From positions 40,711 to 104,710 of the IMG/VR virus record IMGVR_UViG_3300044712_000336: a stretch of DNA of 64,000 nt, one strand, 5' to 3'. The number at the start of each line of letters is the position of its first letter. Position 1 is the first letter of the stretch. The DNA is from a virus. The translations under genes were made by a program, and so were the position numbers. Below are positions 22,148-45,214 of this stretch, piece by piece. The notes under the pieces are model-generated. The model saw only the letters and a list, made by a program, of their open reading frames with translations, searched no databases and was not told the origin of the DNA.

Positions 22148-22846
22148 ATGAGTAAACATTGCCCAATAATGCAAAGAATGAAATCTAACTATGAAGATAG
22201 ATATAGATTTCATTTAACAAGAAGAACACCAATAATTATAAGATTAGATGGTAAAGCATTTCATACTTATACTAAAAATCTAAATAAACCATTTGATATA
22301 GGTTTAATTGAGGATATGCAGAATACTACTAAATTTTTATGTGAAAATATACAAGGTACAAAAATAGGTTATACTCAATCTGATGAAATAAGTATATTAA
22401 TAACTGATTATGATACTATAGATACAGCAGCGTGGTTTGATTATAACGTACAAAAAATATGTAGTATTAGTAGTAGTTTAGCTACTGCTTACTTTAATCA
22501 ATTAAGGAGAGAAAGAGAAATATATAAATTAGCTTATTTTGATAGTAGAGTATTTAATATTCCAAGAGAAGAAGTATCAAATTATTTTTTAGCCAGACAA
22601 AAAGATGCTGTAAGAAATAGTATATCAATGTTGGCTCAATCATTATATTCACATAAACAATTAGAATATAAGAATATTAATGATATGCAGGAAATGTGTT
22701 TTCAAAAAGGATATAATTGGAATGATTTGGAATATTATAAAAAAAGAGGTAGTACTATTATTAAAAATAATGAATGGATTAATATAGAAACACCATTGAT
22801 ATTTACACATGAGTATTTTGAACAATTTGTAAATATTTATATATAA
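22148..22846 (+). CDS. Thg1-like 3'-5' nucleotidyltransferase
   Basis: 232 residues of the tRNA-His guanylyltransferase family, which adds nucleotides to RNA 5' ends in the reverse (3'-5') direction. The palm-type metal ligands are visible: IIRLDGKAFHTYTK with Asp34, and GYTQSDEISIL with Asp79 and Glu80. FDSRVFNIPREEV and ARQKDAVRNSI follow. The HINNLYNT element of eukaryotic Thg1 is absent, which matches the bacterial and viral Thg1-like proteins that repair 5'-truncated tRNAs. In a phage it could repair host tRNAs cut during defence, or mature phage tRNAs. No tRNA gene is seen in this window. Confidence 0.8.
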   Translation: MSKHCPIMQRMKSNYEDRYRFHLTRRTPIIIRLDGKAFHTYTKNLNKPFDIGLIEDMQNTTKFLCENIQGTKIGYTQSDEISILITDYDTIDTAAWFDYNVQKICSISSSLATAYFNQLRREREIYKLAYFDSRVFNIPREEVSNYFLARQKDAVRNSISMLAQSLYSHKQLEYKNINDMQEMCFQKGYNWNDLEYYKKRGSTIIKNNEWINIETPLIFTHEYFEQFVNIYI

Positions 22847-26400: not shown

Positions 26401-27714
26401 TGGTGATTTCTTTTTTAATTCCTGTACAACATTACTAGGTATTTGTACTTCTGTACCTTTTTGTAATTCTGCTATAAAATTCTTATCATTAAATGCAGAT
26501 TCAATCAATTCAAGAAATGCTGCTACATTATGATTACGTGCATCTTTATTATTACGTAACATTGCATGGTAACTATTAATTAATCCTACATAACTATCTC
26601 TTATCAACAATGTAGGATCATTATATTTAGCCATTACCATATATAGTGTTAATTGTAATTTTGCTTTATTTAGTTGTGTAGCTTCAATTACACCATTCTT
26701 AGTTTTACCATATTTAAGTATAGCATTTGATAAACTTTCATCACTTTCATTAGCAATAATACGACCAGATTTTAATTCTACAAATGTAGATGTTCCATCA
26801 TTATGTCTTGCTATTAAGTCAGTATGTCCGCCTATACCTAATATATCTATTGCTAAAGGAACTTCAAATTGTAAATCATCAGATATACCTTCTTCATATT
26901 TACCAGTTGTAGCACTAATGCCCATATTTGATAACATCACAGTTGTAGTATATCTACCTGTTCCATCATTAGATTTAAACTCTAAATGTTGCATACGTTT
27001 GGTAGTTTTAGTATCTATACCTTCTAGTATAATTTTATTTGTTTCAATAGATTCTTCTTTTATTCCTTCATTAACCATATCTACATTACCTATCCATTTA
27101 CCATATATTTGTTTTAATATTGGTGTAACTACTCTACCATCTATTTGTGATAATCTCTTTCTATTTTGATTTACTTTAATATACTCTTCCTTATTTTTAT
27201 AACTATCATATTGCTTTAATAATGTATTATATACATCTTTAGGATCTTCTGGTTTTAATCCCTCCCACTCTTTATCCGCTTTCTTCTGTAAATCAAATTT
27301 CTCATAGTCAGGTGTTAATGATTCAACTACTGAAGATATACGATTAATTTTCTTTCCATTTAAGTTATGATAAGGTAATTCATTTCCTTTATCATCTAAC
27401 TCATAAGTTAATTCTTGTTTATATATATTCTCACTACCTGTAAATGATTGTGTAGTTTCAGTAATTGTAGGTGAAGTAAATATATTATTATAAGCTTGAA
27501 GTAATTTAATTGTTACTTCATTATTCTCATCTCTAGCTTTTTCACCTTGATATATCTCTTTACCTTGTACCCATTCTTTAAAAGATAATCTTTCAGTTTT
27601 AATATAATCTTTGAAAGCATTATCTTCATTTCCATTATGGAACTCTGTTAAATCTTTGTATAGAATACTAGGTTTACCATTAGGTGCTTTAACATCTTTA
27701 ATTTGACAAATCAT
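23461..27714 (-). CDS. Large virion-type protein with RecB-like PD-(D/E)XK nuclease domain
   Basis: 1417 residues, last gene of the leftward block, next to the giant polymerase gene, the place of large ejected (cargo) proteins in crAss-like phages. Residues about 290-360 carry a PD-(D/E)XK nuclease signature: GGHTDLIA with the metal-binding Asp near 297, FVELKSG near 308-314 (ExK), and LQLTLYMVM near 353-361, the Q-x3-Y motif of the RecB/Cas4/AddB-type subgroup. The N-terminal ~270 residues and the middle (500-1250) are charged and mostly helical without recognised domains. A hydrophobic segment (NFAMYLSFILLWKW) lies about 100-120 residues before the C-terminus. It might nick or resect DNA during entry or attack host DNA. 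The domain call is firm, the packaging is inference. Confidence 0.65.
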   Translation of the reverse strand: MICQIKDVKAPNGKPSILYKDLTEFHNGNEDNAFKDYIKTERLSFKEWVQGKEIYQGEKARDENNEVTIKLLQAYNNIFTSPTITETTQSFTGSENIYKQELTYELDDKGNELPYHNLNGKKINRISSVVESLTPDYEKFDLQKKADKEWEGLKPEDPKDVYNTLLKQYDSYKNKEEYIKVNQNRKRLSQIDGRVVTPILKQIYGKWIGNVDMVNEGIKEESIETNKIILEGIDTKTTKRMQHLEFKSNDGTGRYTTTVMLSNMGISATTGKYEEGISDDLQFEVPLAIDILGIGGHTDLIARHNDGTSTFVELKSGRIIANESDESLSNAILKYGKTKNGVIEATQLNKAKLQLTLYMVMAKYNDPTLLIRDSYVGLINSYHAMLRNNKDARNHNVAAFLELIESAFNDKNFIAELQKGTEVQIPSNVVQELKKKSPNIFNPLDYTRGLTADSLEKDIQDTMTNSMDTEHTTDYLKDKYIKQLAGIQDKLNDIKNDPYHKDGKLVPALNRQSRDITTKLLLLTGQKLDIQKRIVDEQEFLMSRLDESKMLGSWEGYFASLQEFELPELKAFQVYKDENGNRADKLYRLRMSKFQELGNKLQKEWGKENNVPVGRILKNLVYSTHNGKGLYDFATVKEKVGGSAVDNRKRLIVAYKSDDKIMESKNKDNYTLIGNYYVKNEDVPVWNSSKMTQTKKDWIIEANYLSSYYFKDRGDNIAYLNQPYQSNIDGDESKDKTLLQKYNDKDSGRHFEYYEGWFPKIWEQPEELEYKTGHKILGGEGTGVLNNIIGWAAYPFINFKEWFNRRFTRYLDYNYEDYDNLGSGLPLKYLGNSRMDEQFLYSDNLGLAFNAFVKNIEWKKQMDNIYILSKGLKSVVEMAQHQSNNPILKNELEYLRRTVPYELTGLKIEELTNEKLLKENKVSFGSSRVYKIDWLKVLKGLQSWSTRSMMAGRFKQGIGNAMHSSLITYQNAIKDSIAKRAFAGITGNEIDFTTTDLQFGINEYRKLVGDYMKGTHTNNKLWLLARDMRYLPEDYNFTVPYDMQVSVRNKLWDVNNWAYIFQSLPDDAMSYIVLAAQLHGMKHTKDKYTEEDIQKYGKSLFKPKVGESKSIYDSYTTDGKGNVNWSGSTRGVIEIAPNTYEPINELSSREIRRLKEVYKGMQGAYRMDEVSVFGSTVIGELMMSLKKWLPVMLRRQFGGLRYKEELGYYGYTYEDIQTELNQLKVRTVSGIKEPVLEWKARTAEGRITTLRKLFVFYASLGRYTQSHEWKKLTNDQKKNILELGINFAMYLSFILLWKWKYDDEPDDDTMKKWWRQYAIDNPSQIWNVSDMARTLETAMSPVVVTKLSKAITNTAGYVTHVMGAGLGMNELRNEKGNIPYQSKVLDIFVYPAMVNQWYKDAQSDKTLFSDNPFKTLK

Positions 27715-27782: not shown

Positions 27783-30700
27783 CTAATCACATTTAGGTTT
27801 TTTAATCCTACCTTCTTCTTGAAGTTTTTGTGTATTTTGTACATCTTCTACAGTTTGTTCTAATCCATTATATTTAACTAAGGTTTCATTCATATTATCC
27901 AATGAAGGAACACTTTGTTCTACTTGTTGCTCTGATTTCATGATCAAATTACCTATATTTAAACTATATGTATTATATGTACTACCTTTACCTATTTTTC
28001 TAAAGTAGTTATCTATTTGATTAGAAGGATTCAATCTCTCATATATACTACTAACCATCTTACCATTAACATCTCTTTCACTAATTTTAATGTATTTGTT
28101 AATAGTATCAATAGGTTTACCTTCTTTATCTAACCCTTTTATACTAATTCTTAAATCAAAGTTACCATAAGTAGGACTTTCATAATTTCCTGTATTTGGA
28201 ATAATATTATATTTACCTTTAATTAACTCATTTATATTCCTATAGTTAATAAGTGCAGTTTGTTTTACAAAATCATTTACCGTTAAATCTAATCTTATAT
28301 TCTCTCTTAATATATCATTACTTAATTTTTCTATCCTTTTTGAATAGCTTACACCTTTCTTTCCATCATTTAACCACTTATTATCTCTATTATTATAGTT
28401 ATATAATGCTGATGGAATACCAAGACTATACCCACCACTACCTAATCTATTACCGTTCTTTAAATTCATGTATGCTATAAACTCAGTTTGAAATTCACTG
28501 TATTTAGGTAATGTTTTAATACTATCACTATTTAATACACTAGTATCTAATTCATATCTACCAGTACTTTGATTATAATTAAAGTTAAACATATTCAAAC
28601 TATTAAAAGCTGTATGTAAATTAGCAGTAATATCAACTGTTTTTTCAGTAGGTTCATTAAATCTAACTTCATGCTCTTTTGTATATGTATTAGGTCTTAC
28701 ACTTACTTTATTCATAAATGTAGGAATATAACCTAACATTTCTAATTTATCTTTATTACTACTATAATATGATTTAACTTGTCTAATCTTATCTAGGAAA
28801 TGTTGTATAAATGCTTGCTCACCAGTTAATATTATTCCATCATTAGTGATATAATCATGCTCTTGACTATAGTTAAATAATGATGTATATAAATATCTCA
28901 TTACTTCCTCACGTTGACGGAATCGTTTTTGATACTTACTTCCTTCAAATGCTGGTAATACCGATTCTTCTCTTGCTTCTATATTAGCTGCAACTGTTCC
29001 ATCACCAAATATATCATTTTGAAACTTACGAATTACTTCACTATTAATAACAAAATTATCTCTTATAAGTTTATCTTGAAACATCATAGTTTCAAGTGCT
29101 TGTTTAAAATGAGGTAATGTATTTAGTATATTAGATATATCAAACATAAAGGAATCTTTTGATTGTAACTCATTCTTATCGTTTAATTCAAATACCTCAT
29201 TAAGTAAATCAATCATTTTATCTAAATCAGCAGATGTTGTTTTTAAATCACGCAATACACCAAGTAATCTCGCTACTTTAGATATTTCTGTTCCTATATT
29301 ATCTAATTTGTCTAACTGTTTTAATACTGCTAATTGTATCTTTAAAAATTCAATATCAGTACTTGTATATATAGGATTACCATTTTTAAACGAGTATACT
29401 TCTTGATTAACTGATTTTAATAACATATCAGTAGTCAATGTTTCTATTTCATTAACTTTTTCACCTTTAGATAGTTCTGCAATCCTTTTATTTATTATAT
29501 TTTTACTAAGTTTCATTTTCTCATTTTTCCACTTAGCATTTACACCAGTATATAATTCAATAGCAGGTTGAGTTATAAATGTATTTCTTACTTGACTTTC
29601 AACACCTAGTCCTAACATAGCGATATAAGAAAGTAATGTGCTATTAGTTAAATAGAAATTAGGTAATATTTGTAATTTAACATTATCCAATGCAGCATTT
29701 GCAAGTGCATCAATTATAGTCCATACATCTTCTTTTCCACCATATTCATATTGACTTAACTTATCATATATAACATCATTAAATTGTATATTATACTTAT
29801 TATCAGTAATAGTTGGTAATCCTTTATCTTTAGATGCTCTAACCATGTGAGCTAATGCTTTAATACCATAAGCAACTACAATACCAACACCAGCTTTACC
29901 TGAGAATACTGATTGGTGGCCATCTAAATTATCTAATACGTCTGATAGATTAAGTGGTTTACTTAACATATTATCTTTAATCCACTTACTTTCTTTTTCT
30001 TTAGACATCTCTAATAATGTAGTTTTCTGTAATTCTTTATATTGTTCTGGATGATTATCTTTCCATAATCTAATCTGTTCATCAGTCATTGGATCAGTAG
30101 ATATAGGTTTAGTCATACGAACCCAATTCTTTTCATCCGTAACTACGTCTAATAGATTCTCTGTAATTTTATTCTTTAAATATATTTCTTTATCTTTGCT
30201 TGATAATCCAGTAGTATTAAACTCATTATCAAATTTACCATCTTTATATCCTAATAATTCATATTTAGCTTTATTATTAGCAATCGCATCTTTCTTTATA
30301 TTAGAAATATCCTTCATTATAATTTGTTTTTGATCAATTACATCTTCAAGTATTCCTTTACGTTCTTGTTGGTTACTATATATTTCATCATATAATTCAT
30401 TTATACGTTCTTGAAGTACTAATTTATTTTCAGATGAAGCATATTTTAATTGACCTTTTAGTGCTTTTATTTCATCCTTTCTTTCATCAGTATCTTTTAA
30501 TATAATCTCTATATCTTTATACTTTTCATATACTTTAGTTAATTCTTCTTCTTTATTTAATATATCTTTCTGTACATCTTCATCATAATTCCATATTCCT
30601 TCACGTGTTATAATAAATAAACTATCAACATCATAATCACAACCATGTTGGAATACAATAAAAGGTGATACAACTACCACATTAGTATCAACAGATTGAT

Positions 30701-33700
30701 AGAATCCCTTTATTTTTAATGCAACAGCACTGTGTAATTCTGATGATGGAATACGAAATCCAAAAGCATCAGCATAAGGTAATACATCTATATCTTTACC
30801 ACTTTCTAAAGCTTTACTAATACTATCTTCAAGTACTTCTGGCAATAATCCTTTTGGAAATAAACATTCAAGATTCATTACTGTTTTACCAGTTATTTCA
30901 TCTTTACGTATACTAAATTGTAATCCATCAGCAAGGTTACGTTTATTTTCATCCATACTATACCTTGATATACCAGCACCACTTTGTAAAATTAACTTAC
31001 TTCCTTTAAGACGTTGTTGTATAACATTCTTTTCCAACATAGAGGAAAATGATGATATAAACTTATTACTCAATGTAGGAAAATTATGTACATTATCCAT
31101 ATCCAAATCTTTAGTAAGTAAGGCAAATGACATGTTAATATCATCTTTCTCTAATCTTGATAATATAGCTTGTTTAAATTTCTTATTATCAAGTTTACCA
31201 TTCTTATCTAATATTTGTTTCTGTACTTTTTCTAATCCTAATTTCATTAAATCTGCAACTGCACCATATATAATATCAGCACTTGCATCATTTGTACCTA
31301 ATACATTTAAGAATGATAATATCTGATTAGGTTGTGCTGTAGTACTATCTATCTCATGTACAGGATTAAATGGTACTCTTAATCCTTTATTATCATAAAT
31401 TATAAGATTGTCTGTATTTACTGTCATATCACCATCCATTATAGATTGCGTATCATATAATGATTTTCTAACAGGTGTTGCAATTTTAACAGTAGATTGC
31501 ATTGTATATAATAACGCACCATGATTACGCATTGACTGTCTTAAATTATTTAACTGTGGATTTGATTTACATAATTCATCAGTAAGTATAACAATAGATG
31601 ATTTAATATCTAATGGAACACCATCTTCACCAATGAAGGAATATACTGTTTTATTAATATTTCCTACACCATAGGATAACCCCATACCTTTATTTAACTC
31701 TTCTTTATATTCAGGTAATCCATAAGTCTGTCCATCTGTTACAGTTACATCATCATTTATATTATTTAATACTTCTTGTATTAACTTTTCATTAGTATTA
31801 TTTTTTCTTAACTGTTCTTCTACTTGTTTCTTTATATCATCCTTTTTCCATTTTATATCACTACCTACCATTACTTTCATATATTCCTTCATACCATATT
31901 CATCATTAATTAAAGGTTGTCTTCCTGATGATGATTCTAATTGTAACCTCTTTAACATGTTTTCACCAGTATTAAAGAAATTAGCATCACCAGCAGTTAA
32001 ATTTTCAATTAAATATGAATTAATATAATTGTTAATATAGAAAGAATTTACTAATGCTTTAAATATAGGTAAATTTAATACTGTAGGATCATATTCATAT
32101 TTCTTTGTATCATTATTATATTTAGTATAAGTTGTTCCTTTACCATCTTTCTTATTATTTAACTTTTGTATATCTTCTCTAGTAAACTTAAATCTGCTTC
32201 CATCCAAATATCTAAATTTATCTTTTCCATCAATAGTATCAATTTTAAATAATCCTTCAAGTTTCTTTGGATTTATCCTACTTACTAAATCTTTAGGTAT
32301 AGGCATTTCTTTTTGAATCATTACATTCACTAATCTTTCAGTTCTATTAGCAAATTGATTTAATATATTATCAATAAATTGTTTTCTTATCTTATCATTA
32401 CTTGCTAATTCTTTATATGCCTTTTGTGTTGATTCAGTATTATTTAGTATATCTTGTTTACTAATTTCAAATATCTTACTAAACGCTTCATTAAATACTC
32501 TAAAGTTAGTATCATTATTTTTATTATAGTTTTTGAAATTTCTTATATCTTGTAAATTATCATTATGTCTTTGTATAAACATATCAATAATACCATCAAG
32601 GTATTTATTGATTTTATCTCTATCAAGTATATCCATTTCTGCACCCATTCTATTTACACGATGTGCTTGTGTATAGAAATACTGTATATAAGTGGGAACT
32701 TCTTGTCTATGTTTTAATCTACTATGATGTAGGAAAGATGCTGAGAATACTGTTTCAAGATAATTACTAGGTGATTCTTGTGTATAATCATACCCATAAG
32801 TAGAGTTTTTAGTTTTAGTTCTATTTCCATCATGGTCAACTGCTTGATATACATGTTGTGTTCCATCAATTACAGATTTAAGTAATGGATTTTTACTATA
32901 AGTATGTGTATTCCAATACTTAGGTATATTCTTTTGTATATACGAACTATCTTCATTAACTTCCGATAATGATACTACTTTATATAATACCTCTCTTGCC
33001 CATGTACTAGGTGTTGATGGAAATACTCTCTCATTTTTAGAATTGACTATTGATGAATATTCATCTTTTACTCTACTATTTATAGGTTTAAGTAATGCAA
33101 AGAAAGCATTAATAACATCGTTATCTTTATATAGTACATCATACATATCAACAGTATATTCACTAACATTACCATCTTCATCTGTTTCCTCTACTTTCTT
33201 ACCATAATTCTTTAAACTATCATTACTAGTATTATTAACTAATAAATCTCTAAACTTAGATTGTATATCAGCTTGTACTCTTGAATCTATAATCATAATC
33301 TTACCATTATCATTAGTGATAAGATGTTCCATTCCTACAAACTTAAAGAAATTACCTACAAAGTTAGTATTAGTACTATTATTAATTACTTTTATTAAAT
33401 TATCTACATCAGTTTGATCTTTAATTCTTTCAATTAAATTTAATCTTATATCGTCTACAAGTGTTCTTTGTACACCACTTGCATTTTGCATCTTGTTGTT
33501 ATAAGTAGTAGTACCACCTTGATATAACATTTCAATAATACTAGAACTTAAATTATTATAACTTCCAATTGCTGATGTAATTTCTAATAAACTTTGTAAA
33601 CTTTGTTTTAATTTAAACTCATTAAATAACTCAGTATAATCGACATTTATATTTTTCTTTAATAATTCAACTCGTATTTCTTTATGTAAATCATCTATAT

Positions 33701-36700
33701 TTTGATTCTTTTTTAATTCTATAATCTTTACATTATCTTTACTTCTTAATACAGATAAATCATTACGTAAATCTATAGTTGTTCCATCAGTAGTATATAC
33801 AAATGTATTAGTATCATACCATCCGTGTTTAGTTATAGGATTTATCTTTTGTACATCATTAAACAATTTATCCATAAATCTCTTAATAGCAACTACATCA
33901 TTATTATCTTTAGCAGATAAAGATAATCTATCAGATAGTTGATTTTGCATATTAACTATATTAGTTGTATCCAAATGTGGTAATACTTCTAACATTTGTT
34001 TAAATACAAACTTTCTATTAACAAATCCATTTGGTATTTCTTCCCATTGTCCTTCTGATGTTTTCTTTACTTTAGGAACAAAACTAAACAAATGTTTAAC
34101 TAATGCAGTTACATTTTCAACATTAGTAAATTTAGGATTAGTAATCTCATCTTTTAAGCCTTCTCGTGTTGATTCATAATCTTCGTATACATTTTCAATA
34201 TCGTCAACTTGTACATCACTATCTTCATCATTATTAGTTTCTATATTTTCTGTAAACTCTTTTACTTCTGTTTTTAACTCTTGTTTAATTACTGGGAATA
34301 TTTGTTTCATCATATAATCAAATCCAGTCATCTTTTCCTTTATGCCAAGTAAATTACGTACTTCATATTCCTTTACTAACATATTATATAATTTATCTTT
34401 CTCTAGGAAATCTGCACGTTTTACTGGATCTTCTTGTTTATCTGCTAATAGTTTATATTGTTTTGCGCCCTCTTTAAATAGTCTATGTAAAACATTACCT
34501 AAATTATTCTCCACTACAGGAACAATTACTTTCCTACTATGTTGTACACCATCTTTTGTATAAGTCTCTGTAATGGTATATCCTTGTTCTTTTAACTTTT
34601 TAGCTTGTCTAAATATTTCTTGTTTTAGTTTATTAAAGTTATCCACACCATCATTTACAATATCACCTTTAGCATCCCTATCACCTAATATTTCCTGTAT
34701 AGTAATTAAATCATAACTATTTTTTACATTAGCATTCTCAATAATTCTATGACTATATTTACCTTGTTCAATATCTCTATATATAGTATCTAAGGATGAC
34801 ATGTTTTTGTATGTAAACTTAAACAATTTAGATAACCAATTAAAGAATCGTTTTAACCAGTTTTCTTTTATACTATTATGATCTTTATTCCAATTCATAA
34901 AATCATTAGCAAGAACCTCAGTCAACTCATTGAAGGAATATGGTAGGTATCCATGTTCTTTTTCAAATGCTTTTGCTAATTGTTCTTGTTCCTTCACAGT
35001 CATATATTGTGTATGAATCTTATGGAATGCTTCATGTCGTATAATCTCTTTAAATGTTCCTTTACCTTCTTCACCTTCAACTTGTAAACTATACATAATA
35101 CCTTGTTTTAATGTACCATATACATTTGCACCACGTACATCATTTAACATCATTTGAGTTAGTATTTGTAACTCTTCTTCCTTTACATCAGGTATTAATT
35201 GTTTAACTAATTTAGTAGCTTCATTAACAGTAATATATGTTCCTTTATTAATGTCAAATTCTGACATATCAAACATACCAATATTGAAGGAATCATCTGT
35301 ATTACTAATGTCTGTAATATCTGAAGATGTAGGAACATCTTGTTCTCCTTCTAATGGAACACCTTGTTCTTCTGATTTCTTTGGTTCTTTCTGTACATTT
35401 GATATATTATCATTAATTCTAACTTGTATTTTAGCTTGATCTATTCTCTTTACATGTGTTACAAGATTATTCTCAATAGTAGATAATTGTTGTTTAACAG
35501 TACTATTATCTTCAGCAATATTATAAGTCCCAGTTATACTATTTTTCTTTAGTTTAATTGGTTCTTTAAATACTGTATCAACTCTATCTTTAGATATAGG
35601 TAATCTTAATTTCTTATTATTAATTATTTTATTTAATAAATCAGTAGTTACAGGCTCTTGTACAAGTTCTTCTTTCTTTTTATATATAAGTTTCATTATA
35701 TCACCTTTATTATTTGTATAATTAGATACTTGATCTTCTAACCATTTTGCTATATCTTGTTGTGATTTCTTTTCAACAACTTGACCTCTATATGTTCCTG
35801 TATTGAATGATCCAAGTATTCTCTTTAATTCAGCAATACTTATATCTTCAGATAATAATTGTCCAGTTACAGGATTTTGTACAGGTATTTTATTTTCATA
35901 TATAATATCACGTATAAAGTTTTCATAATTAGAATAAGAAGTATTACTACTTAATATTGATTTAAAACTTATGAATTTATTTTTACCTTTTTCCTGTACA
36001 GTACGAAGATTAGTTTTACTACCATCTTCATTAAACATTACAGCATTTGTAACTGCAATAGAACTCAGTTGATTTGCCATATCACCAGAGTTTAAATCTA
36101 ACTCTGTTTTAAGTAACGTTTCCTCACCATTACCCATATCAACTTTAACAATTCCATTATCTAATCTATAAGATATTCCTGTACCTTCATGTTTATACAT
36201 AGGTGATGTATATATATTTTCACGTATTGTACGTAACACACCTAATCTAAATATATCTGAGTTTGATAAAAATTTATTATCTAATTTATCTTGTAAATAC
36301 TTTAGTAAATCCTCATCATTTTTAGTACGTAATCCATTTACAAATTCACCAACTTTAGCTGGATAATTTCTTATATGTTTATATAACTGTTGCTCTAATG
36401 TTCCAGATTTAGTAGCTCTACTATCTGTACCTTCTCTATCATTTTTACGTTTTAATCCAGCACCATATTTAATAACCTTATCAATTGCTTCTGCTAATGA
36501 TATTGTAGTATATTCATCTGAAGTTAAATCATCTCTATATTCTACTTGTATTTGATCTAATGATTTATCAGACTTAATTGTTCCTACATTGGGATCAGCA
36601 AGTATCTTATTAACTCTTTGATTTGGTGTTGAACCTTCTATAAATTGTACTTTATTCCATTGTTTAACTTTATTTAAAGTACCTTTATCTTTTGAAAATC

Positions 36701-39700
36701 CTAAATCTTCTGATACAAAATCTCTACTTACATCAATTTGACCATTACTTCTTAAATCAGCTACAACTATATTTATAAAATCATCTACACTTTCTGCATG
36801 TGAATCTTTAATAGTTGCTGTTGCTACTAATGGAATAAATTCAATAGCTGCATTTCTGAATAAATTATATAAATCCTTCTTATTATCATCACTTATATCA
36901 GTAGGTGTTATATTGGAATATTTAGCAAGTAACCCATCTAATTTAACATTAAACCTTTCATAATCAAAATCAGTAGATTCTTTACCTGATGGATATTGTA
37001 CTGGTAATACATCACCTTTCTTAATTTGACCAATTGGTTCAAATTCATCTTTAAATGATGATAGTAAACTATCAAATACAGGATTACCTAACTTAAACTC
37101 AAGTTGATTATATCCTTTATCACTAAGTAATTGTTCAAGATTATTTAATATAGATGTTCCTAGACCAGTTTGATAATATTTACCAGTATTATTGAAATCT
37201 TCAGTAGTCATTCTTCTCGGATCTAATGGAAAAGATAACTTAGCTTTTTTATCAGTAATAAACTCTACTTGTGGGATACCATATTGATTTTCTTTAAATC
37301 CTTCACTTGAAGCTTTAGTCGGTATTACTACTCTAAAGGAAACAACATTCATACCTGTTCCAACAGTATATTGATCTATAAGTTTAATAATAGTATTAAC
37401 TAAATCGTTTGATTGATTTGGTTCACTACTATAGGAATATGATAATGAATTTGCATATTGTATATTACCAGTTTTAATAATATCTTTACTTAAAGTATTA
37501 ATATTACTATTAGTTAATATATTATCATCAAATGTAATTTCATTTAATTTCTTATTCCATTTTACTTTATTATATCCTTTATCAGTTAATATATCTTCCT
37601 CTACAGGATTAGGTATAATACCAATTACTCTTAATGTATTTTCAGTTTGACCGGTAGTTTTATCATTTCCTTCAGCAACTATAAATGTGTGATTACCTGT
37701 AAAATCATTACTTGTATTGTTAAGATTTACATACCATACTTTATTATTCTCACTCACTAATGGAAATTCTTCACCTTCAAATGTTACAACATTAGCTTCA
37801 ACATGATCTACATTCTCAACTAAAGGATCATTTGATTCCTTACCGATAAATTCTTTCTTACGTTCTTCTTTCTTAATCCTATTAGTCAAACTGTTTAAAT
37901 CTTCAAATGTTCCATCAGGATTAATTCTAATCCTACTATCCACTACGGATAATAATTTAACACTACCTTTTGTATCAGCTAATGAATTATCAGTAATAAC
38001 TTCACCAGATTTAGTAACTTGTATTACTGTTCCTAATGTACTACCAATAGTAGTTAAACTATCTTTATATCTAGTTTCATTCTGCTGAAGGAATTTGTTA
38101 AATTTTTCTAATTTATTAACTGATTCTTTTATACCATTTATATCAGTACGTTCTTCTATATTAGAAAATCCATTACCTAATTTAACTAAAGCATAAGTAG
38201 TTGGACGAGTAAGCATAGTGTACATTATCTCATTATATGGTGAGTAATCAACTTTCTTAGTTAATTGATTATATATGACAGTTTTTCCTTCAATAGGTTG
38301 AACATCTATAAATATTGCTTGTACAGTTTTACCTACTAATTCTTGTGGTAAAAATACTACTTGCTTAGATTCATCTGGTAATCTTAACTGTTGTAAATAT
38401 GCTTGTCTTTCTTTCTCTGTCCCTACAACAATAGCACATGACATTAAGTCTTTTCTTTTATTATAAGTATCAATAATATTCATTATATTATTTGTAACTT
38501 GTATTCCTGTAGTGGAAGATGTTATATCATTTCCAGTAGAGGATTTAGCTACACCACTATCTACTTGTTTATCATTCATTTGATACATACTTGCGAAATC
38601 AGATATATAATTAATAGCTGTTCTCATAGTAGTATTTAATGGTTGTATTTCCGTAGCTTCTCTTAATGTATGTGTAGGTTCTTCTAATGTCTTATTTATA
38701 TTAGTTTCACCAATCTGTGTGCTATCGCCAATTAGTATTAAATGTGAATTTTTAATAAGTGATAAATCATCTAAATCATAATCACTAAATTGGCCTATCT
38801 CATCAATTATTATATGTGAATATTTATTCTTTTCTTCTTCGCTTAATTTACTAAAATCACTTACTAACATTCCATTCTTTATATTTGCTTCACTTTGTAA
38901 GTTATCTAACTGTTCTTTATTCTTACATAATGCTAATACTTTATCAGATTGACCGTCTATATTATTAAGTAATAATGTTTGTTTTGCTACAATAGTAGTT
39001 TTACCTGTTCCTGCATTAGCTTTAAGTAATGATACTGTTTTAGTAGGTTTACTTAGTTTAATACTTAACTGTTCTAAAGCTAACTCTTGTTCTATTGTAG
39101 GAAATTTGTCAATACTTAATTTTGCTTTATTTTCAATATATTGTTTATATGTAAAATCACTATGTAATAATTCATTAATCCAGAATAATTCGTGTACTTC
39201 TGATTGTGTTTCTACATATTTAAGTAGTCTATTTTTATTAGCATTGAAGGAATTTTCTGTAAATCCTAATCCTTCTAATTCTATTTGATATTTATTCCAA
39301 CCACCATTTACATATTCTCTAATAGTACTTAACAATTCATTTATATTACCTGTTTGTGCATACTTTAGAAATGGATTGTTTATTCCTTTATTGGGGAAGA
39401 ATACATGTTTAGATACACCTGGAATTAATGGTTGCATGCCACTAGGATTATACTTAGCATTAATTGATGGTGTAGATAATATAGTATTAACAAAGAATAA
39501 TCCTCTATTTGGTGATAACAAATACCCTATCTCTGGGTCATTGTGTATATAATCTTTTCCTTCAACTTGTGATTTTACTTTACTCTTTAGAAGCTCATTT
39601 ACTTTATCAGTAAGATTATATTGTTTTAACTCGTCAAGGAATTTGTATAGTAATCCTTGTCTTACTACAGTATTAGTTTCTGATACAATATCATTAAAAC

Positions 39701-42700
39701 TATCCTTTAACTCTGTAGGAATTATTCCTTTATTAGATAATTCAATTAACCCATTTACTTGATTAGTAATATGTCTTTCTAATGATGCTTTCTGTTGAGC
39801 AATCTTATTATCAAGATGTTTGGATAATTCTTTTATAATTTCAGTAAGTTTACTTATTTGATTTTCCAATGTAGGAATATAATCATTATCTTTAAATAGT
39901 TCATTATCCTTTAAATCATTATCTATCCTATATTCATATAGTACTTTATCTTGTCTTAACTTCTGTAATTGATTTACCAAGTTTTGTAAATCATCTTCAT
40001 CTACTGATAAAGCATCAGGATTAGAAAGTTTTCCTGTATTGGAATTACCCCATTCCTTTAATGACATATTAACATTATTATAATTAATCATTGCTCTATC
40101 ATATTGAAATGCTTTATATCTATTTTCTGGAAGTTTATATTTATTGTATTCTTCTTCTTGTTTATATTTTACTGAAGTTGTACCATCAAGTAATTTAACC
40201 CTTTTTTTCTCACTAATGGAATATTCATCTTCTAACTCTTTAAGTTTACTTAATTCAACTTTAGTAGATTGTATATCTGTTCCTTCAGGATTAGAAAAGA
40301 AATCACTAGATGAAGCATTATCTAAATCATCACTTAATGTATCTTCATTAAATTCAAACATCTCATTATTATTCCTATACTTCTCTATTAAATCCGATAT
40401 AATTAATTTCTGCCCATCTATCTCTTTGCGTAAAGAATCAAATCCTTGTTCAATATTATTTACATCAGTATTAGTAATAAGAGTTTTATCATTATACATA
40501 TCAAGTATATTTGATAACTTTGTTCCATTATTATAAGATGATTTTATATTATTATATAGTACGTAATCTTTACCGACTTTATAGAAGTATTTATTAGCTT
40601 CATCAATTTGAGGTTGAAGTTTATTTTTTAATGGGGAATTAACCATTTTAAAATAATTATTCATATTATTGAATAATATTTCTTCATCCAATTTACTATT
40701 CTTAGCTAGATACTCTATTGCAGTTTGTTTAGTTGATTCTTCTTTATATAATCTATTAAATACATCATTACGTAAATTCTTATATTGTAAATCTAATAAT
40801 TGATGTTTAGTTAAATCTTTATCTTCTAATTTAGTACGTTCTTCTTCTAATAATGATAATTTGTTCTTTTCATCTTCATTATAATATTGTTCCAAATCAA
40901 AGTAATGTTCTTTAAAGTTATTATATAAAGCTTCATCAGCTGCTTTATATTCATTCATTACTTTATTTCTACCTTTTACATCTTCTAATTGTGCAAGTGC
41001 ATCTTTCTTATCATCAATAAGTTTTTGTATATCTTCTTTTTCCTGTACATCATTAGTGTTATTTTTAATATGTTCTAACGATTGACGTTGTATATCAAGT
41101 TTATAGTAAGCTTTAATTAGTTCATCATTATATAAAGCTTTATCATCTTCAGTTTTACTAGTTAATCCAGCTTGTTTACGTAAGTTGTATAATAACATAT
41201 CTTCTGTAAAGGAACTAGTTTGTAATGCTTTTTCATAAGACCTTGCATAATCCTTTACTCTATCAATATTATCTTTATAGTATTTCTGTAATTCTGGATC
41301 TTCTATACTTTCTATATTTTTACTTAATTGCGTAATTGCTTTATTAACGGCATCATCTTTAGATTTAGATAATGGATTAGTAAGTTCTGCAAATAATGTA
41401 TTAGCGATATTATCTGACATTATGTAATCAATAGTATTAACATTACCAACTATTGTACTCATTATTCCATCACTTACACCTTGTTTATTCTTTAATGTAG
41501 AAAATTCAAGATTAAATATCCCATTATCTCTATCTTTCATTTTTATAACTGGTTTACCTTCATCATCAAGTTTTAACGATTTAGTAACTTTTCCATCAGC
41601 ATCAGTAGAAGTTTCATATTCATATAAATCATTAACATTTCCAATGAAGGAAAAAGCATTACCTTCTCTTACTTTAAGTAAATTATCATATATCTTTTTA
41701 GTAGTTTCAATATCTTGTCTTTCTTCTTTAGCTTCACTTTTTGCACCTATTCCAGCACCGCCAATTCCAACTAAAGATCCAATTAATACACTACGTTGTT
41801 TATCAATATCAGACCAATTTGTTACTGCATAATTTAATTCTTTACCAATAGTAGTGATTAAATTGTCATTTATTTTATTAGATGCTTTCTTAGTTTCTAT
41901 ATTTTGTATAGCATCTTGTATATTTTCTTCATATAAACCTTCACTTATTACACCTGTAGGAATACTATGTTTTGTTTTATTTAACCAACTTGCTGTTTTT
42001 AACAGTTCTTCTTTAGCAATATCACTTTCTAGTTTACTACCTAATTCTTTTATAGTATTAGATTTTACCTTTAATGGATTACCAAAGAATAGTGAACTTT
42101 CAATAAGATTACTTACTGACAATGCAGCAATGTTTTGACCATATACCTCATATACATTCTTACCTATGTTCTTATTTAATTCTTGTGTTGTTTTAGCTGA
42201 AAGCTCGTTTAACTTTCTATTATACCAATCATTAAGTTCTTGTATAGCTTTTTTATTATCTACAGATAATCCTTCCCCTTCTATACCTTGTGATTGTTTA
42301 GTAAGTTTATCTAAAGTATTCTTATATTGTTCATCTAACTTTAACTTATCAGATTTATACTGACGTGTATAATAATTATCTTTAGATAAATCCCATGTTC
42401 CATCATCAGATAATCCAGCACTATTTTTTGCTGATTTATAGAAATCTTTAGCTTCCTGTCCAGCTTCACTTATAGTTTGTGGTATAGCTGCACCTAATAC
42501 TTGTAATGCTTTTGCACCTATTCCTGTAGCACCAAATGCTTTACCTATCATACCTACTCCACCACCATATAACATTGATGATGCACTATATGCTACACCA
42601 TCTAATAAGTTTTCATAGAATTTAGCACTACTTAATTGGTCTAATATATTACCTTTATTATAATCAGCATCAGCGTATACTTTTAAATTCTCACTTAAAT

Positions 42701-43133
42701 ACTTATCACTTTTATCCATTAAATCAATAAGTTCATTATTCCATATATCTTCAGCATTTCCAGTAGCTAATGTTTTTCCTGCACCATATATATAACCTAA
42801 TGTTGATAATGCTTTTAATGGAACAGATGCAGTTCTACTTATAACCATTTTCCATCCTGCATCAATTACACCTTGATTTTCTGCACGTAATTCTTCTTGA
42901 TTATATTCAGCACCAGTAGGATCTTGATATGACATATATGTAGGATCATACTTATTAAAATCATCTAATCCAAAACTACCAACATTACTACCATATTTAA
43001 TACTTTGACGAGTACTTAAATCTGGACTAATAGTAGTCTTAACAGCATTTGGATCATTACGTATCTCTTGTAAATAAGAACTATAAGGGTCTTTTTCAAC
43101 CCTTATAGCATTATCATTTAATTCTTCATTCAT
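27783..43133 (-). CDS. Giant virion protein: SF1 helicase, metallopeptidase-like and DNA-dependent RNA polymerase domains
   Basis: 5116 residues in one uninterrupted frame. Order, with approximate positions: N-terminal unknown region with glycine-rich hydrophobic stretches (about 190-230 and 450-465), as in membrane-crossing ejection proteins; a long coiled-coil region (about 480-1250); an SF1 helicase with Walker A AGTGKTT near 1375, IIIDEIGQ near 1443, LILIGDSTQIG near 1465 and MYTMLTRPTTYALV near 1645; a zincin site RHEAFHKIH near 2699 (HExxH); and an RNA polymerase core with QQRLKGSKLILQSG near 4040 and the Mg-binding GCDYDVDSLF (DxDxD) near 4165. crAss-like phages carry a single-chain virion RNA polymerase that enters the cell and transcribes early genes; this DxDxD matches. 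The fusion with helicase and HExxH parts suggests one machine for entry, strand opening and transcription. Confidence 0.8.
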   Translation of the reverse strand: MNEELNDNAIRVEKDPYSSYLQEIRNDPNAVKTTISPDLSTRQSIKYGSNVGSFGLDDFNKYDPTYMSYQDPTGAEYNQEELRAENQGVIDAGWKMVISRTASVPLKALSTLGYIYGAGKTLATGNAEDIWNNELIDLMDKSDKYLSENLKVYADADYNKGNILDQLSSAKFYENLLDGVAYSASSMLYGGGVGMIGKAFGATGIGAKALQVLGAAIPQTISEAGQEAKDFYKSAKNSAGLSDDGTWDLSKDNYYTRQYKSDKLKLDEQYKNTLDKLTKQSQGIEGEGLSVDNKKAIQELNDWYNRKLNELSAKTTQELNKNIGKNVYEVYGQNIAALSVSNLIESSLFFGNPLKVKSNTIKELGSKLESDIAKEELLKTASWLNKTKHSIPTGVISEGLYEENIQDAIQNIETKKASNKINDNLITTIGKELNYAVTNWSDIDKQRSVLIGSLVGIGGAGIGAKSEAKEERQDIETTKKIYDNLLKVREGNAFSFIGNVNDLYEYETSTDADGKVTKSLKLDDEGKPVIKMKDRDNGIFNLEFSTLKNKQGVSDGIMSTIVGNVNTIDYIMSDNIANTLFAELTNPLSKSKDDAVNKAITQLSKNIESIEDPELQKYYKDNIDRVKDYARSYEKALQTSSFTEDMLLYNLRKQAGLTSKTEDDKALYNDELIKAYYKLDIQRQSLEHIKNNTNDVQEKEDIQKLIDDKKDALAQLEDVKGRNKVMNEYKAADEALYNNFKEHYFDLEQYYNEDEKNKLSLLEEERTKLEDKDLTKHQLLDLQYKNLRNDVFNRLYKEESTKQTAIEYLAKNSKLDEEILFNNMNNYFKMVNSPLKNKLQPQIDEANKYFYKVGKDYVLYNNIKSSYNNGTKLSNILDMYNDKTLITNTDVNNIEQGFDSLRKEIDGQKLIISDLIEKYRNNNEMFEFNEDTLSDDLDNASSSDFFSNPEGTDIQSTKVELSKLKELEDEYSISEKKRVKLLDGTTSVKYKQEEEYNKYKLPENRYKAFQYDRAMINYNNVNMSLKEWGNSNTGKLSNPDALSVDEDDLQNLVNQLQKLRQDKVLYEYRIDNDLKDNELFKDNDYIPTLENQISKLTEIIKELSKHLDNKIAQQKASLERHITNQVNGLIELSNKGIIPTELKDSFNDIVSETNTVVRQGLLYKFLDELKQYNLTDKVNELLKSKVKSQVEGKDYIHNDPEIGYLLSPNRGLFFVNTILSTPSINAKYNPSGMQPLIPGVSKHVFFPNKGINNPFLKYAQTGNINELLSTIREYVNGGWNKYQIELEGLGFTENSFNANKNRLLKYVETQSEVHELFWINELLHSDFTYKQYIENKAKLSIDKFPTIEQELALEQLSIKLSKPTKTVSLLKANAGTGKTTIVAKQTLLLNNIDGQSDKVLALCKNKEQLDNLQSEANIKNGMLVSDFSKLSEEEKNKYSHIIIDEIGQFSDYDLDDLSLIKNSHLILIGDSTQIGETNINKTLEEPTHTLREATEIQPLNTTMRTAINYISDFASMYQMNDKQVDSGVAKSSTGNDITSSTTGIQVTNNIMNIIDTYNKRKDLMSCAIVVGTEKERQAYLQQLRLPDESKQVVFLPQELVGKTVQAIFIDVQPIEGKTVIYNQLTKKVDYSPYNEIMYTMLTRPTTYALVKLGNGFSNIEERTDINGIKESVNKLEKFNKFLQQNETRYKDSLTTIGSTLGTVIQVTKSGEVITDNSLADTKGSVKLLSVVDSRIRINPDGTFEDLNSLTNRIKKEERKKEFIGKESNDPLVENVDHVEANVVTFEGEEFPLVSENNKVWYVNLNNTSNDFTGNHTFIVAEGNDKTTGQTENTLRVIGIIPNPVEEDILTDKGYNKVKWNKKLNEITFDDNILTNSNINTLSKDIIKTGNIQYANSLSYSYSSEPNQSNDLVNTIIKLIDQYTVGTGMNVVSFRVVIPTKASSEGFKENQYGIPQVEFITDKKAKLSFPLDPRRMTTEDFNNTGKYYQTGLGTSILNNLEQLLSDKGYNQLEFKLGNPVFDSLLSSFKDEFEPIGQIKKGDVLPVQYPSGKESTDFDYERFNVKLDGLLAKYSNITPTDISDDNKKDLYNLFRNAAIEFIPLVATATIKDSHAESVDDFINIVVADLRSNGQIDVSRDFVSEDLGFSKDKGTLNKVKQWNKVQFIEGSTPNQRVNKILADPNVGTIKSDKSLDQIQVEYRDDLTSDEYTTISLAEAIDKVIKYGAGLKRKNDREGTDSRATKSGTLEQQLYKHIRNYPAKVGEFVNGLRTKNDEDLLKYLQDKLDNKFLSNSDIFRLGVLRTIRENIYTSPMYKHEGTGISYRLDNGIVKVDMGNGEETLLKTELDLNSGDMANQLSSIAVTNAVMFNEDGSKTNLRTVQEKGKNKFISFKSILSSNTSYSNYENFIRDIIYENKIPVQNPVTGQLLSEDISIAELKRILGSFNTGTYRGQVVEKKSQQDIAKWLEDQVSNYTNNKGDIMKLIYKKKEELVQEPVTTDLLNKIINNKKLRLPISKDRVDTVFKEPIKLKKNSITGTYNIAEDNSTVKQQLSTIENNLVTHVKRIDQAKIQVRINDNISNVQKEPKKSEEQGVPLEGEQDVPTSSDITDISNTDDSFNIGMFDMSEFDINKGTYITVNEATKLVKQLIPDVKEEELQILTQMMLNDVRGANVYGTLKQGIMYSLQVEGEEGKGTFKEIIRHEAFHKIHTQYMTVKEQEQLAKAFEKEHGYLPYSFNELTEVLANDFMNWNKDHNSIKENWLKRFFNWLSKLFKFTYKNMSSLDTIYRDIEQGKYSHRIIENANVKNSYDLITIQEILGDRDAKGDIVNDGVDNFNKLKQEIFRQAKKLKEQGYTITETYTKDGVQHSRKVIVPVVENNLGNVLHRLFKEGAKQYKLLADKQEDPVKRADFLEKDKLYNMLVKEYEVRNLLGIKEKMTGFDYMMKQIFPVIKQELKTEVKEFTENIETNNDEDSDVQVDDIENVYEDYESTREGLKDEITNPKFTNVENVTALVKHLFSFVPKVKKTSEGQWEEIPNGFVNRKFVFKQMLEVLPHLDTTNIVNMQNQLSDRLSLSAKDNNDVVAIKRFMDKLFNDVQKINPITKHGWYDTNTFVYTTDGTTIDLRNDLSVLRSKDNVKIIELKKNQNIDDLHKEIRVELLKKNINVDYTELFNEFKLKQSLQSLLEITSAIGSYNNLSSSIIEMLYQGGTTTYNNKMQNASGVQRTLVDDIRLNLIERIKDQTDVDNLIKVINNSTNTNFVGNFFKFVGMEHLITNDNGKIMIIDSRVQADIQSKFRDLLVNNTSNDSLKNYGKKVEETDEDGNVSEYTVDMYDVLYKDNDVINAFFALLKPINSRVKDEYSSIVNSKNERVFPSTPSTWAREVLYKVVSLSEVNEDSSYIQKNIPKYWNTHTYSKNPLLKSVIDGTQHVYQAVDHDGNRTKTKNSTYGYDYTQESPSNYLETVFSASFLHHSRLKHRQEVPTYIQYFYTQAHRVNRMGAEMDILDRDKINKYLDGIIDMFIQRHNDNLQDIRNFKNYNKNNDTNFRVFNEAFSKIFEISKQDILNNTESTQKAYKELASNDKIRKQFIDNILNQFANRTERLVNVMIQKEMPIPKDLVSRINPKKLEGLFKIDTIDGKDKFRYLDGSRFKFTREDIQKLNNKKDGKGTTYTKYNNDTKKYEYDPTVLNLPIFKALVNSFYINNYINSYLIENLTAGDANFFNTGENMLKRLQLESSSGRQPLINDEYGMKEYMKVMVGSDIKWKKDDIKKQVEEQLRKNNTNEKLIQEVLNNINDDVTVTDGQTYGLPEYKEELNKGMGLSYGVGNINKTVYSFIGEDGVPLDIKSSIVILTDELCKSNPQLNNLRQSMRNHGALLYTMQSTVKIATPVRKSLYDTQSIMDGDMTVNTDNLIIYDNKGLRVPFNPVHEIDSTTAQPNQILSFLNVLGTNDASADIIYGAVADLMKLGLEKVQKQILDKNGKLDNKKFKQAILSRLEKDDINMSFALLTKDLDMDNVHNFPTLSNKFISSFSSMLEKNVIQQRLKGSKLILQSGAGISRYSMDENKRNLADGLQFSIRKDEITGKTVMNLECLFPKGLLPEVLEDSISKALESGKDIDVLPYADAFGFRIPSSELHSAVALKIKGFYQSVDTNVVVVSPFIVFQHGCDYDVDSLFIITREGIWNYDEDVQKDILNKEEELTKVYEKYKDIEIILKDTDERKDEIKALKGQLKYASSENKLVLQERINELYDEIYSNQQERKGILEDVIDQKQIIMKDISNIKKDAIANNKAKYELLGYKDGKFDNEFNTTGLSSKDKEIYLKNKITENLLDVVTDEKNWVRMTKPISTDPMTDEQIRLWKDNHPEQYKELQKTTLLEMSKEKESKWIKDNMLSKPLNLSDVLDNLDGHQSVFSGKAGVGIVVAYGIKALAHMVRASKDKGLPTITDNKYNIQFNDVIYDKLSQYEYGGKEDVWTIIDALANAALDNVKLQILPNFYLTNSTLLSYIAMLGLGVESQVRNTFITQPAIELYTGVNAKWKNEKMKLSKNIINKRIAELSKGEKVNEIETLTTDMLLKSVNQEVYSFKNGNPIYTSTDIEFLKIQLAVLKQLDKLDNIGTEISKVARLLGVLRDLKTTSADLDKMIDLLNEVFELNDKNELQSKDSFMFDISNILNTLPHFKQALETMMFQDKLIRDNFVINSEVIRKFQNDIFGDGTVAANIEAREESVLPAFEGSKYQKRFRQREEVMRYLYTSLFNYSQEHDYITNDGIILTGEQAFIQHFLDKIRQVKSYYSSNKDKLEMLGYIPTFMNKVSVRPNTYTKEHEVRFNEPTEKTVDITANLHTAFNSLNMFNFNYNQSTGRYELDTSVLNSDSIKTLPKYSEFQTEFIAYMNLKNGNRLGSGGYSLGIPSALYNYNNRDNKWLNDGKKGVSYSKRIEKLSNDILRENIRLDLTVNDFVKQTALINYRNINELIKGKYNIIPNTGNYESPTYGNFDLRISIKGLDKEGKPIDTINKYIKISERDVNGKMVSSIYERLNPSNQIDNYFRKIGKGSTYNTYSLNIGNLIMKSEQQVEQSVPSLDNMNETLVKYNGLEQTVEDVQNTQKLQEEGRIKKPKCD

Positions 43134-43144
43134 TTGTATTTATT

Positions 43145-45214
43145 TTATTTAGTAGGAATATTCCATTGACTTTCCCCTTTAACTGGTATACCTGCATTTT
43201 TATAACCATCTTTAAGATACTGTGTATTTCTAAATGGATCTGCACTATTAACAGAATAATCTACAAAGTCTTTTGATAAAGTTTCTGGTTCACCTTTTGC
43301 ATTCTTAACTATATTTTTACCTGCTTTATCTACTTTTACATACTCTATCTCAAATGGGTTATTTTCATCTAACCTAGCCCCTACATCACTTTCTGAAACT
43401 TTATCACCACTAGGATTCTTCCAATTATATTTCTTTACAGCCATTACATTATATGTAGCAAATTCATTATTACCAATAGGTACTGTTACTTGTTCTATAC
43501 CACTAGCATTTTTAGTAGGATCATAAGCTATCTGATTAATTTTCCATAAACCTTTAGCATATTCATTTTGTTCTTGTGTACTATTTTGTACTATAACCTT
43601 TTGATTCTTTCCATCAGCATCTTTATATGATATATAATAAGCACCAGGTGCTACACTATTATTAACTGCTAATTTACCAACAACTGCTGTTTTTCTAAAA
43701 GCATTTAAAGCCTCTTCTGCATCACTTCCTGTACCACCAAAAGTATATCCCATTTGTTTTACTATATAATCATTTAATGGAATTTTTTTATCACCTTCTC
43801 TAACTACACCATTATTCATTAATAATCCATCTCTCCATACTTTTTGTTCTGGGTCATAATTAGATACTAATCTTGCTCTCATATCTTCTTCTTTTCCTTT
43901 AGTTGGAAAGAACACAACATCATCTTTTTTACTATGAGCCTTTTGAATTTGATTATAATTATTAACACTAAACTTTATAATATCTTCAGCAGTTAAATTA
44001 GGATTCTTATTACTCATATTTAATGCAATCTCTTTTAATTTAGGATTTTTATCAAATTGCATAAATATTTTATTACCAGTTGGATCAGTCTTAAAATAGT
44101 TGCCTGATAACATTTGATTTAATTGACTACCCTTAATTCCTTTATAATTAATTGGTACAGTTTCTTTTTGTATTTGCGTGCCTGTTACTTCACCATATCT
44201 AGGTGTTCCAGGAATAGTCTTATCTCCAATAACAATATCACCTTTTAGTAGATCGTTTGGATCTAATTCTTTATAAGTTTGTCCTTCTAATGGAACTCTA
44301 TACGTTTGTTCTTCTTCTATAATTTTATTAGCTGCATTTACACCAGATTGATAACCTTTACCTGTTTCCTTCATATCTTCATTATGAGTAATATCGTATT
44401 TACCATATATTTTTGCGGCTTCTAATGCTTTATTTTTTATAATATTATTTACATCATATCCAACATTTTGTCCAAATCTCATATATGCTTGAACTTCTGG
44501 ATCTGATTTCATTGCATGTTCTACTATACTTCTTATTTTTTCTTCTGGTCTAATTTCTGTCCCATCACGTAATGTCCATATTTGTTCACCATTAACTATT
44601 TTAACTCTTTGTATATCTCGTTTTTGATCCTCAATATCTCTACCTACTTTTTGCATAAATTCTGTCATCTTTATATTTTGTGGTAAAGTATATTGATTCA
44701 TTAAATTATATGAACCTGTTTGTGGATTATATGATGTACCACCACTAGTCTTAAAATCATTATATAACTTCTGTTTAGCTAACTCCTTCATATCAGAAGG
44801 TAATTCTGATTTATCTAATTGTTCCAATTGTTTTTGATATGTTTCGTAATTCTGTTTAATTATACCAAACTCACCTGTTGGTTTTAACATATCTTGTTTC
44901 CACCTATTTACATTAATTATATCCCTACTTAATCCAGATATATCACCTTCTGTTTTAGCTTCTAAAAACTTATTAAGTAATTCATCTCTTTTCTGTTTAT
45001 ATTGCTGTTGTCCTTGTAATACACGTTGTTCATCAGCAGTCTTACGTATATAAGGGGTACTTATATCATCATCCCTCATGGAATATATTTGAGATTCTGT
45101 TAAATCTTTTTTCTGTTGTTTTTCTTCTAATCTCTTTTGCATAAAATCCAATGGTAATGGAACAAATTTTTCCACTGGATTATGTTCAATACTTTGCCAA
45201 TATCTACTTGCCAT
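43145..45214 (-). CDS. crAss-type virion/cargo protein (689 aa)
   Basis: Not recognised by domain. Starts MASRYWQSIEHNPVEKFVPL; residues 20-220 are helical, Gln/Lys-rich and coiled-coil-like (KRLEEKQQKKDLTES, LQGQQQYKQKRDELL), the rest is mixed with Asn/Gly loops. Between the muzzle/677-residue genes and the giant polymerase gene, crAss-like phages carry uncharacterised proteins that are packed inside head or tail as cargo; size and helical N-terminus agree. A hairpin lies just upstream, so its expression may be set separately. Confidence 0.55.
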   Translation of the reverse strand: MASRYWQSIEHNPVEKFVPLPLDFMQKRLEEKQQKKDLTESQIYSMRDDDISTPYIRKTADEQRVLQGQQQYKQKRDELLNKFLEAKTEGDISGLSRDIINVNRWKQDMLKPTGEFGIIKQNYETYQKQLEQLDKSELPSDMKELAKQKLYNDFKTSGGTSYNPQTGSYNLMNQYTLPQNIKMTEFMQKVGRDIEDQKRDIQRVKIVNGEQIWTLRDGTEIRPEEKIRSIVEHAMKSDPEVQAYMRFGQNVGYDVNNIIKNKALEAAKIYGKYDITHNEDMKETGKGYQSGVNAANKIIEEEQTYRVPLEGQTYKELDPNDLLKGDIVIGDKTIPGTPRYGEVTGTQIQKETVPINYKGIKGSQLNQMLSGNYFKTDPTGNKIFMQFDKNPKLKEIALNMSNKNPNLTAEDIIKFSVNNYNQIQKAHSKKDDVVFFPTKGKEEDMRARLVSNYDPEQKVWRDGLLMNNGVVREGDKKIPLNDYIVKQMGYTFGGTGSDAEEALNAFRKTAVVGKLAVNNSVAPGAYYISYKDADGKNQKVIVQNSTQEQNEYAKGLWKINQIAYDPTKNASGIEQVTVPIGNNEFATYNVMAVKKYNWKNPSGDKVSESDVGARLDENNPFEIEYVKVDKAGKNIVKNAKGEPETLSKDFVDYSVNSADPFRNTQYLKDGYKNAGIPVKGESQWNIPTK

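Follow-up and report, generated by a model that had tools for sequence, protein, structure and literature searches.

Crassviruses are the most abundant gut phages. Their polymerase, which works without a sigma factor, must open promoters, and about 100 kb of DNA must enter past the first kilobases. Giant crAss polymerases of up to about 6,000 aa have been described (PMC10136315), and a further study presents the crAss transcription block as several large multidomain proteins with PDDEXK (PMC7886860). In crAss001, gp47, gp49 and gp50 are virion cargo and are thought to leave the particle partly unfolded (PMC10172136, PMC6235969), and phi14:2 g065-g067 are virion proteins according to their record annotation. 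A fusion of HExxH and RNA polymerase has been reported for N4-like phages, and zincin self-processing has been put forward as a general proposal (PMC5512222). Giant crAss polymerases, the zincin of p-crAss gp45 and a PDDEXK in the gene block were already known; our limited literature search found no description of an SF1 helicase fused to a crAss polymerase.

The window studied here comprises the last 64,000 bases of a 104,710-base IMG/VR virus contig. A single frame on its minus strand (27783..43133), which opens with an ATG at 43133 and closes with a stop codon whose last base is 27783, has 5,116 codons and encodes a giant chain of 5,116 aa with an N-terminal region, an SF1 helicase, an HExxH domain and a crAss-type RNA polymerase. 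A preliminary description of this DNA had proposed one 15.3-kb frame of 5,116 residues; its coordinates were exact, and the minus strand had gone unmentioned. The G+C content is 26.6% in both the frame and the window. By direct reading, GTGKT lies at residue 1375, DEIG at 1444, GDSTQ at 1469, HEAFH at 2700 and DYDVD at 4166, and these motifs, on which the preliminary description had relied, proved to be real: when independent homologues of the polymerase, helicase or HExxH domain are aligned, each motif forms the invariant core. Neither PHROGs nor NCBIfam recognised the giant chain, and no transmembrane helix was found in it. Its Gly/Ala-rich N-terminal region (residues 76-237; 42423..42908, minus strand) contains 11.5% G and 13.3% A, compared with chain-wide values of 5.1% and 3.6%, and is homologous to the N terminus of the separate subunit cr111_1 gp32 (E ~1e-10), to the relative L008 (E 4e-26; both by phmmer/blastp) and, weakly, to the N terminus of crAss001 gp47.

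By the sequences of its capsid, ring and muzzle proteins, all of which were matched, the window phage is a crassvirus. The gene for the major capsid protein lies beyond the window, on the contig's left arm (Crass_capsid, 2.3e-58). Upstream of the giant chain, Pfam identified the tail ring proteins Ring_1 (6e-21), Ring_2 (4e-25) and Ring_3_4 (4e-15) and a muzzle protein (47379..51437, minus strand; crAss_MUZ, 3.2e-147), which supply a virion context. Gene order assigns the cargo-protein positions between the muzzle and polymerase genes to a 677-aa protein (45283..47316, minus strand), placed as in phi14:2 and cr111_1, and to a 689-aa protein (43145..45214, minus strand), for which no family match was found. 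A 1,417-aa third subunit of the transcription block (23461..27714, minus strand) occupies the position of phi14:2 g065 and crAss001 gp49. The whole series of muzzle, two cargo-position proteins, giant chain and third subunit is arranged much as in phi14:2 and cr111_1. By motif reading only, the third subunit carries a RecB-like PDDEXK signature (GGHTDLIARHNDGTSTFVELKSG). In L006 and L008 its homologue is fused to the giant chain, and motif reading places between the two a second HExxH that is absent from the window subunit. A hydrophobic, transmembrane-like stretch lies near the C terminus, in the third-subunit part, of the longest single chains: L008 (~5907), L095 (~5977) and L116 (~5840). 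Elsewhere in the window we observed a Thg1-like protein (22148-22846; tRNA-His guanylyltransferase family, Pfam E 4e-29), although ARAGORN found no tRNA in the window, and a VWA-domain protein (20134-21264) and an AAA ATPase of PHROG 2376 (695-1792) that could conceivably form a MoxR/VWA-like pair.

Residues 3694-4538 (29520..32054, minus strand) are securely assigned, by profile and alignment, to the crAss type of two-barrel RNA polymerase. A profile that drew solely on the window sequence and its metagenomic relatives had one match in the PDB, 6VR4, the phi14:2 polymerase (E 9.6e-47, 742 profile positions); a comparison with phi14:2 gp66 of the kind recommended earlier as a check thus recovered the polymerase. 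Because this homology is to a solved structure, the expectation of a two-barrel polymerase near residues 3700-4200 held as well, the barrels of the window chain being predicted by homology. When residues 3690-4560 were aligned with crAss001 gp50, p-crAss gp44, cr111_1 gp33 and phi14:2 gp66, identity was 21-22%. The three Asp of the catalytic DxDxD (DYDVD, residues 4166-4170; 30624..30638, minus strand) are invariant in this alignment, as are Lys 3844 and Lys 3883 in the first half of the core, which by analogy are probably the barrel lysines. Two-barrel core homology and a catalytic DxDxD place the core in the family of phi14:2 gp66, and its matches among annotated phages (tblastn) were all crAss-like. 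Single slices of the giant chain gave no matches to the PDB with phmmer; profiles succeeded.

The helicase core spans residues 1331-1693 (38055..39143, minus strand) and presents the SF1 motifs in order: Q, I (GTGKT), II (DE), III (GDSTQ), IV (R1504), V and VI (R1643), motif V being weaker in the window copy and lacking the QG glutamine that most relatives have. The region passed the Pfam cut-offs of AAA_30 (7e-9), AAA_19 and Viral_helicase1. An alignment with nine relatives, whose identity to the window copy is 19-24%, has the SF1 motifs as its invariant columns. A profile search of the PDB returned a Dda-like helicase and Pif1 and, more weakly, RecD. A structural model of moderate confidence (pLDDT 66.7) gave its top Foldseek matches to SLFN11, Dda, RecD/RecD2 and Upf1 (TM about 0.5, E from 1e-8 down to 1e-10; about 1e-8 to 1e-9 for Dda, RecD2 and Upf1), and Dna2 was also among the matches. 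Fold and profile both point, at the moderate confidence of the model, to a compact SF1 core nearest Dda, Pif1, RecD and Upf1, that is, to SF1B and Upf1-like enzymes. The preliminary description had expected a UvrD/Pif1-like fold near residues 1340-1660; a motif-complete SF1 helicase with Pif1 among its nearest relatives was indeed found, and the UvrD part did not stand. A UvrD/Rep-type (SF1A) helicase, which would have large 1B/2B insertions, was rejected, the core being compact (~360 aa), UvrD ranking 49th in Foldseek and the profile matches being Dda-like, Pif1 and RecD.

Relatives were gathered by alignment-driven scans, since no viral contig was matched when a single sequence, either the polymerase third or the helicase alone, served as the query. 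The alignments yielded about 100 loci (L numbers) with crAss-type polymerases plus three from genome bins whose titles name Spirochaetaceae, Prolixibacteraceae and Bacteroidia, bin membership being weak evidence of host. Domain models placed a window-type helicase upstream of the polymerase in 31 loci, a count that leaves out L011, whose sequence is cut before the helicase. Helicase and polymerase share one frame in 24 of the 31 and lie on separate frames in seven (L007, L009, L015, L017, L018, L107 and L117). The union in one chain that had been proposed was borne out by more than 20 other contigs with the same modules, in the same order and in one frame, and relatives with the parts split over genes, which had been anticipated too, were seen, for example in those seven loci. 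The longest fused chains reach 6,045 aa (L008), 6,105 aa (L095) and at least 6,597 aa (L102); several relatives are longer than the window chain and, by motif reading only, also include a PDDEXK nuclease and another HExxH. When the polymerases of the first set were placed in a tree, the helicase-bearing rows fell into one fully supported clade (14 rows), the three rows without a helicase being cut at their 5' end. Judged from these sequences, the helicase-polymerase fusion is a clade trait, wider than the window phage. In three loci the polymerase is broken into several short frames with gaps (L016:7844-12835, L107:9698-15067, L074:8648-11362), possibly by introns, frameshifts or a changed code of the kind described for Zeta crassviruses.

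A second arrangement, with an SF1 helicase C-terminal of the polymerase, was found in other crassviruses, for example in cr50_1 (L086, NC_055868.1, 3019-17343), where a gene annotated 'DNA helicase' encodes an HExxH domain, a virion-type polymerase and a Dda-like helicase in one chain; such a label on a crassvirus giant gene can therefore mask a virion polymerase. In a helicase tree with several long branches, the C-terminal Dda-like helicases lie on one side together with free-standing Dda-like enzymes from p-crAss, crAss002, cr110 and Aeh1, and all 31 copies of the window type fall on the opposite side (support 100). The simplest reading of these sequences is that a helicase was recruited to the crassvirus polymerase at least two separate times. 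A DNA-level search for a relative's helicase in annotated phages gave no matches. Cultured crassviruses such as crAss001 and phi14:2 are without a fused helicase, which is therefore dispensable for crAss-type virion transcription in general.

We consider it probable that the window chain is a crassvirus virion-type polymerase which shares its polypeptide with a metallopeptidase-type HExxH domain and with an SF1 (SF1B-like) helicase that is functional. Gene order and the proteomics of homologues suggest that the chain is packaged in the virion, ejected and used to transcribe early genes: it would be made late and packed as capsid cargo, would leave through the tail partly unfolded and refold in the cytoplasm, and would there transcribe the early genes. 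The clade-wide fusion of helicase and polymerase suggests an injected motor-plus-transcription machine. As to the exact job of the helicase, its tether to the polymerase suggests a motor that may move on the entering DNA, where it might open promoters for the sigma-less polymerase, clear bound proteins or draw the DNA in. The N4 vRNAP transcribes only denatured DNA in vitro, and is believed to rely on host gyrase (PMC12633501), and its need for opened DNA illustrates a need that a tethered helicase could meet. The HExxH domain would be an accessory module at the junction of an ancestral gp47-like upstream subunit and the polymerase. A bolder scenario holds that crassviruses have on more than one occasion joined an ATP-driven SF1 motor to the ejected polymerase, upstream of it in the window's clade and, as a Dda-like helicase, at the C-terminal end elsewhere. 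A single injected chain would then open the incoming genome or draw it in as well as transcribe it, and HExxH domains at the subunit junctions would trim that chain after entry. We find this scenario as a whole doubtful.

Alternatively, the helicase could act in DNA processing instead of transcription. It and the neighbour's PDDEXK nuclease would then make up an injected machine for end processing, anti-defence or attack on host DNA, for which the polymerase is no more than a travelling companion. The RecB-like PDDEXK signature of that neighbour (23461..27714), the presence of helicase, polymerase and nuclease in one chain in L008, and RecD, Dna2 and Dda among the Foldseek matches would all fit such a role, and a PDDEXK in the transcription block is already on record (PMC7886860). 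However, that same source treats PDDEXK as general in crAss-like transcription proteins, and there is therefore no association with the helicase. Moreover, helicases of two lineages are joined to the polymerase chain, one at either end, which indicates that they are connected with transcription or with the entry of DNA. We regard the DNA-processing role as rather unlikely.

The HExxH...ExxA metallopeptidase-type domain of the window chain (residues 2609-2850; 34584..35309, minus strand) carries H2700, E2701, H2704 and E2739. In 19 aligned sequences the H, E and H and a downstream Ala are invariant and the E2739 column is conserved at 90% or more, and a wider alignment of 38 sequences reads HE..H and then EE..A. 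The HExxH followed by a downstream Glu ligand is a gluzincin-type signature. Homologous domains form the C-terminal ends of crAss001 gp47 and of p-crAss gp45, the latter annotated in its record as 'RNAP associated protein fused to zincin protease'. In the AF2 model the core has a pLDDT >90, with the HExxH and the Glu on confident helices (96-111 and 135-153). No solved fold matched this model, the best PDB hit being collagenase ColH (E 0.67), and profile searches returned no relevant PDB sequence and no Pfam peptidase above its cut-off. Because no solved structure matches, it is the signature that suggests a zincin fold and peptidase activity; of the zincin-like HEAFH claimed earlier, the peptidase-type HExxH(+E) signature was retained and the match to a solved zincin fold was not.

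A peptidase at this site could make the chain a self-processing polyprotein: once the chain is ejected, or while the virion is being assembled, the HExxH domain would cut it and so separate helicase-bearing from polymerase pieces. One study proposes self-processing by zincins for polyvalent proteins (PMC5512222). The domain does sit at the ancestral-subunit junction. The gene is split just before it in L009, L017, L018, L042, L060 and L078, where the polymerase ORF begins 36-49 aa upstream, and after it in other relatives. L006, L008 and others carry a further HExxH close to the next junction. Nevertheless, the domain is retained where the chain is already split (crAss001, p-crAss, L007, L009 and L017) and is therefore independent of a chain to cut, and no first HExxH domain was seen in the giant chains L027, L028, L031, L034, L036 and L038. 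The crAss001 virion bands of ~150, ~270 and >300 kDa (PMC6235969) are near full-length gp49, gp47 and gp50 (154.5, 262.5 and 276.9 kDa; PMC10172136), and the N4 vRNAP, with an HExxH beside its polymerase, has been studied at full length, residues 1-3500 (PMC12633501). Self-processing thus seems unlikely to us, and the earlier suggestion that the HExxH part cuts the chain is so far unsupported, given that the domain persists where the split exists and that the homologues look full length.

The integrity of the helicase argues for the functional enzyme of our preferred reading. Invariant in all 31 helicase copies are the G, G and K of Walker A, the DE of Walker B, the D and Q of motif III and the Arg of motifs IV and VI, L006 being included after removal of its intein. 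The helicase dN/dS in related-phage pairs was 0.05-0.56 by a simple Nei-Gojobori calculation in which several pairs are near saturation, and the polymerase gave similar values for these pairs. In L006, whose chain has 6,243 aa or more, Walker A is interrupted by an intein that contains a sequence resembling an HNH endonuclease (GLAG/C...HN/TGKT; L006:3320-4170, ORF residues ~1107-1390). Walker A is the kind of site taken by inteins in working ATPases. Apparent losses of Walker A were rejected in L006, where the intein interrupts the motif, and in L100-L102, where the search pattern had been too strict. The clade-wide constraint on the helicase indicates that its ATPase work matters. That the helicase is instead catalytically dead, a mere structural or DNA-binding spacer, might be read from its very divergent sequence, but the ATPase and coupling residues kept in every copy, the purifying selection and the Walker A intein make this very improbable, and we rejected it. 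A chimeric assembly joining unrelated genes, conceivable for a single metagenomic contig, has a negligible chance of being true and was refuted by 24 loci with the same one-frame order, which come from many samples and include one in a separate genome-bin assembly (L116).

A helicase is tied to the polymerase in a whole clade, and at the other end of the chain in other crassviruses, which makes the coupling testable with small recombinant domains. Among known systems, the vRNAP of coliphage N4 is a T7-like single-subunit polymerase. Like the window protein, it is a giant ejected single chain with an HExxH motif in a domain that adjoins the polymerase; unlike it, it uses hairpin promoters on single-stranded DNA, and no helicase is mentioned (PMC12633501). 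Thermus phage P23-45 also fuses a two-barrel RNA polymerase to a giant virion protein (5,002 aa), but the partner is the tape measure protein, and again no helicase is mentioned (PMC10770324). The polyvalent proteins of phages and conjugative elements are likewise injected multidomain chains that combine zincin-like peptidases with helicases or polymerases, whereas their RNA polymerase members are N4-like, and the available part of that account does not describe a crAss-type polymerase with an SF1 helicase (PMC5512222). Closer to the window, phi14:2 shares the polymerase core over about 740 positions (gp66, 6VR4) and the order of muzzle, cargo, upstream subunit (g067), polymerase (gp66) and third subunit (g065), but it spreads these subunits over three separate genes (1,797, 2,180 and 1,421 aa), has no SF1 helicase and lacks the HExxH in g067. 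The homologous HExxH domain is present in crAss001 gp47 and p-crAss gp45, with the polymerase in gp50 and gp44; in contrast to the window, the HExxH subunit and the polymerase are encoded by separate genes (gp47/gp50/gp49 and gp45/gp44), without a Walker A. Finally, KNV26_gp059 of cr50_1 (Cohcovirus hiberniae, Suoliviridae) unites HExxH, polymerase and SF1 helicase in one chain of 4,774 aa, as the window does, but its helicase is Dda-like, belongs to a different lineage and lies C-terminal of the polymerase.
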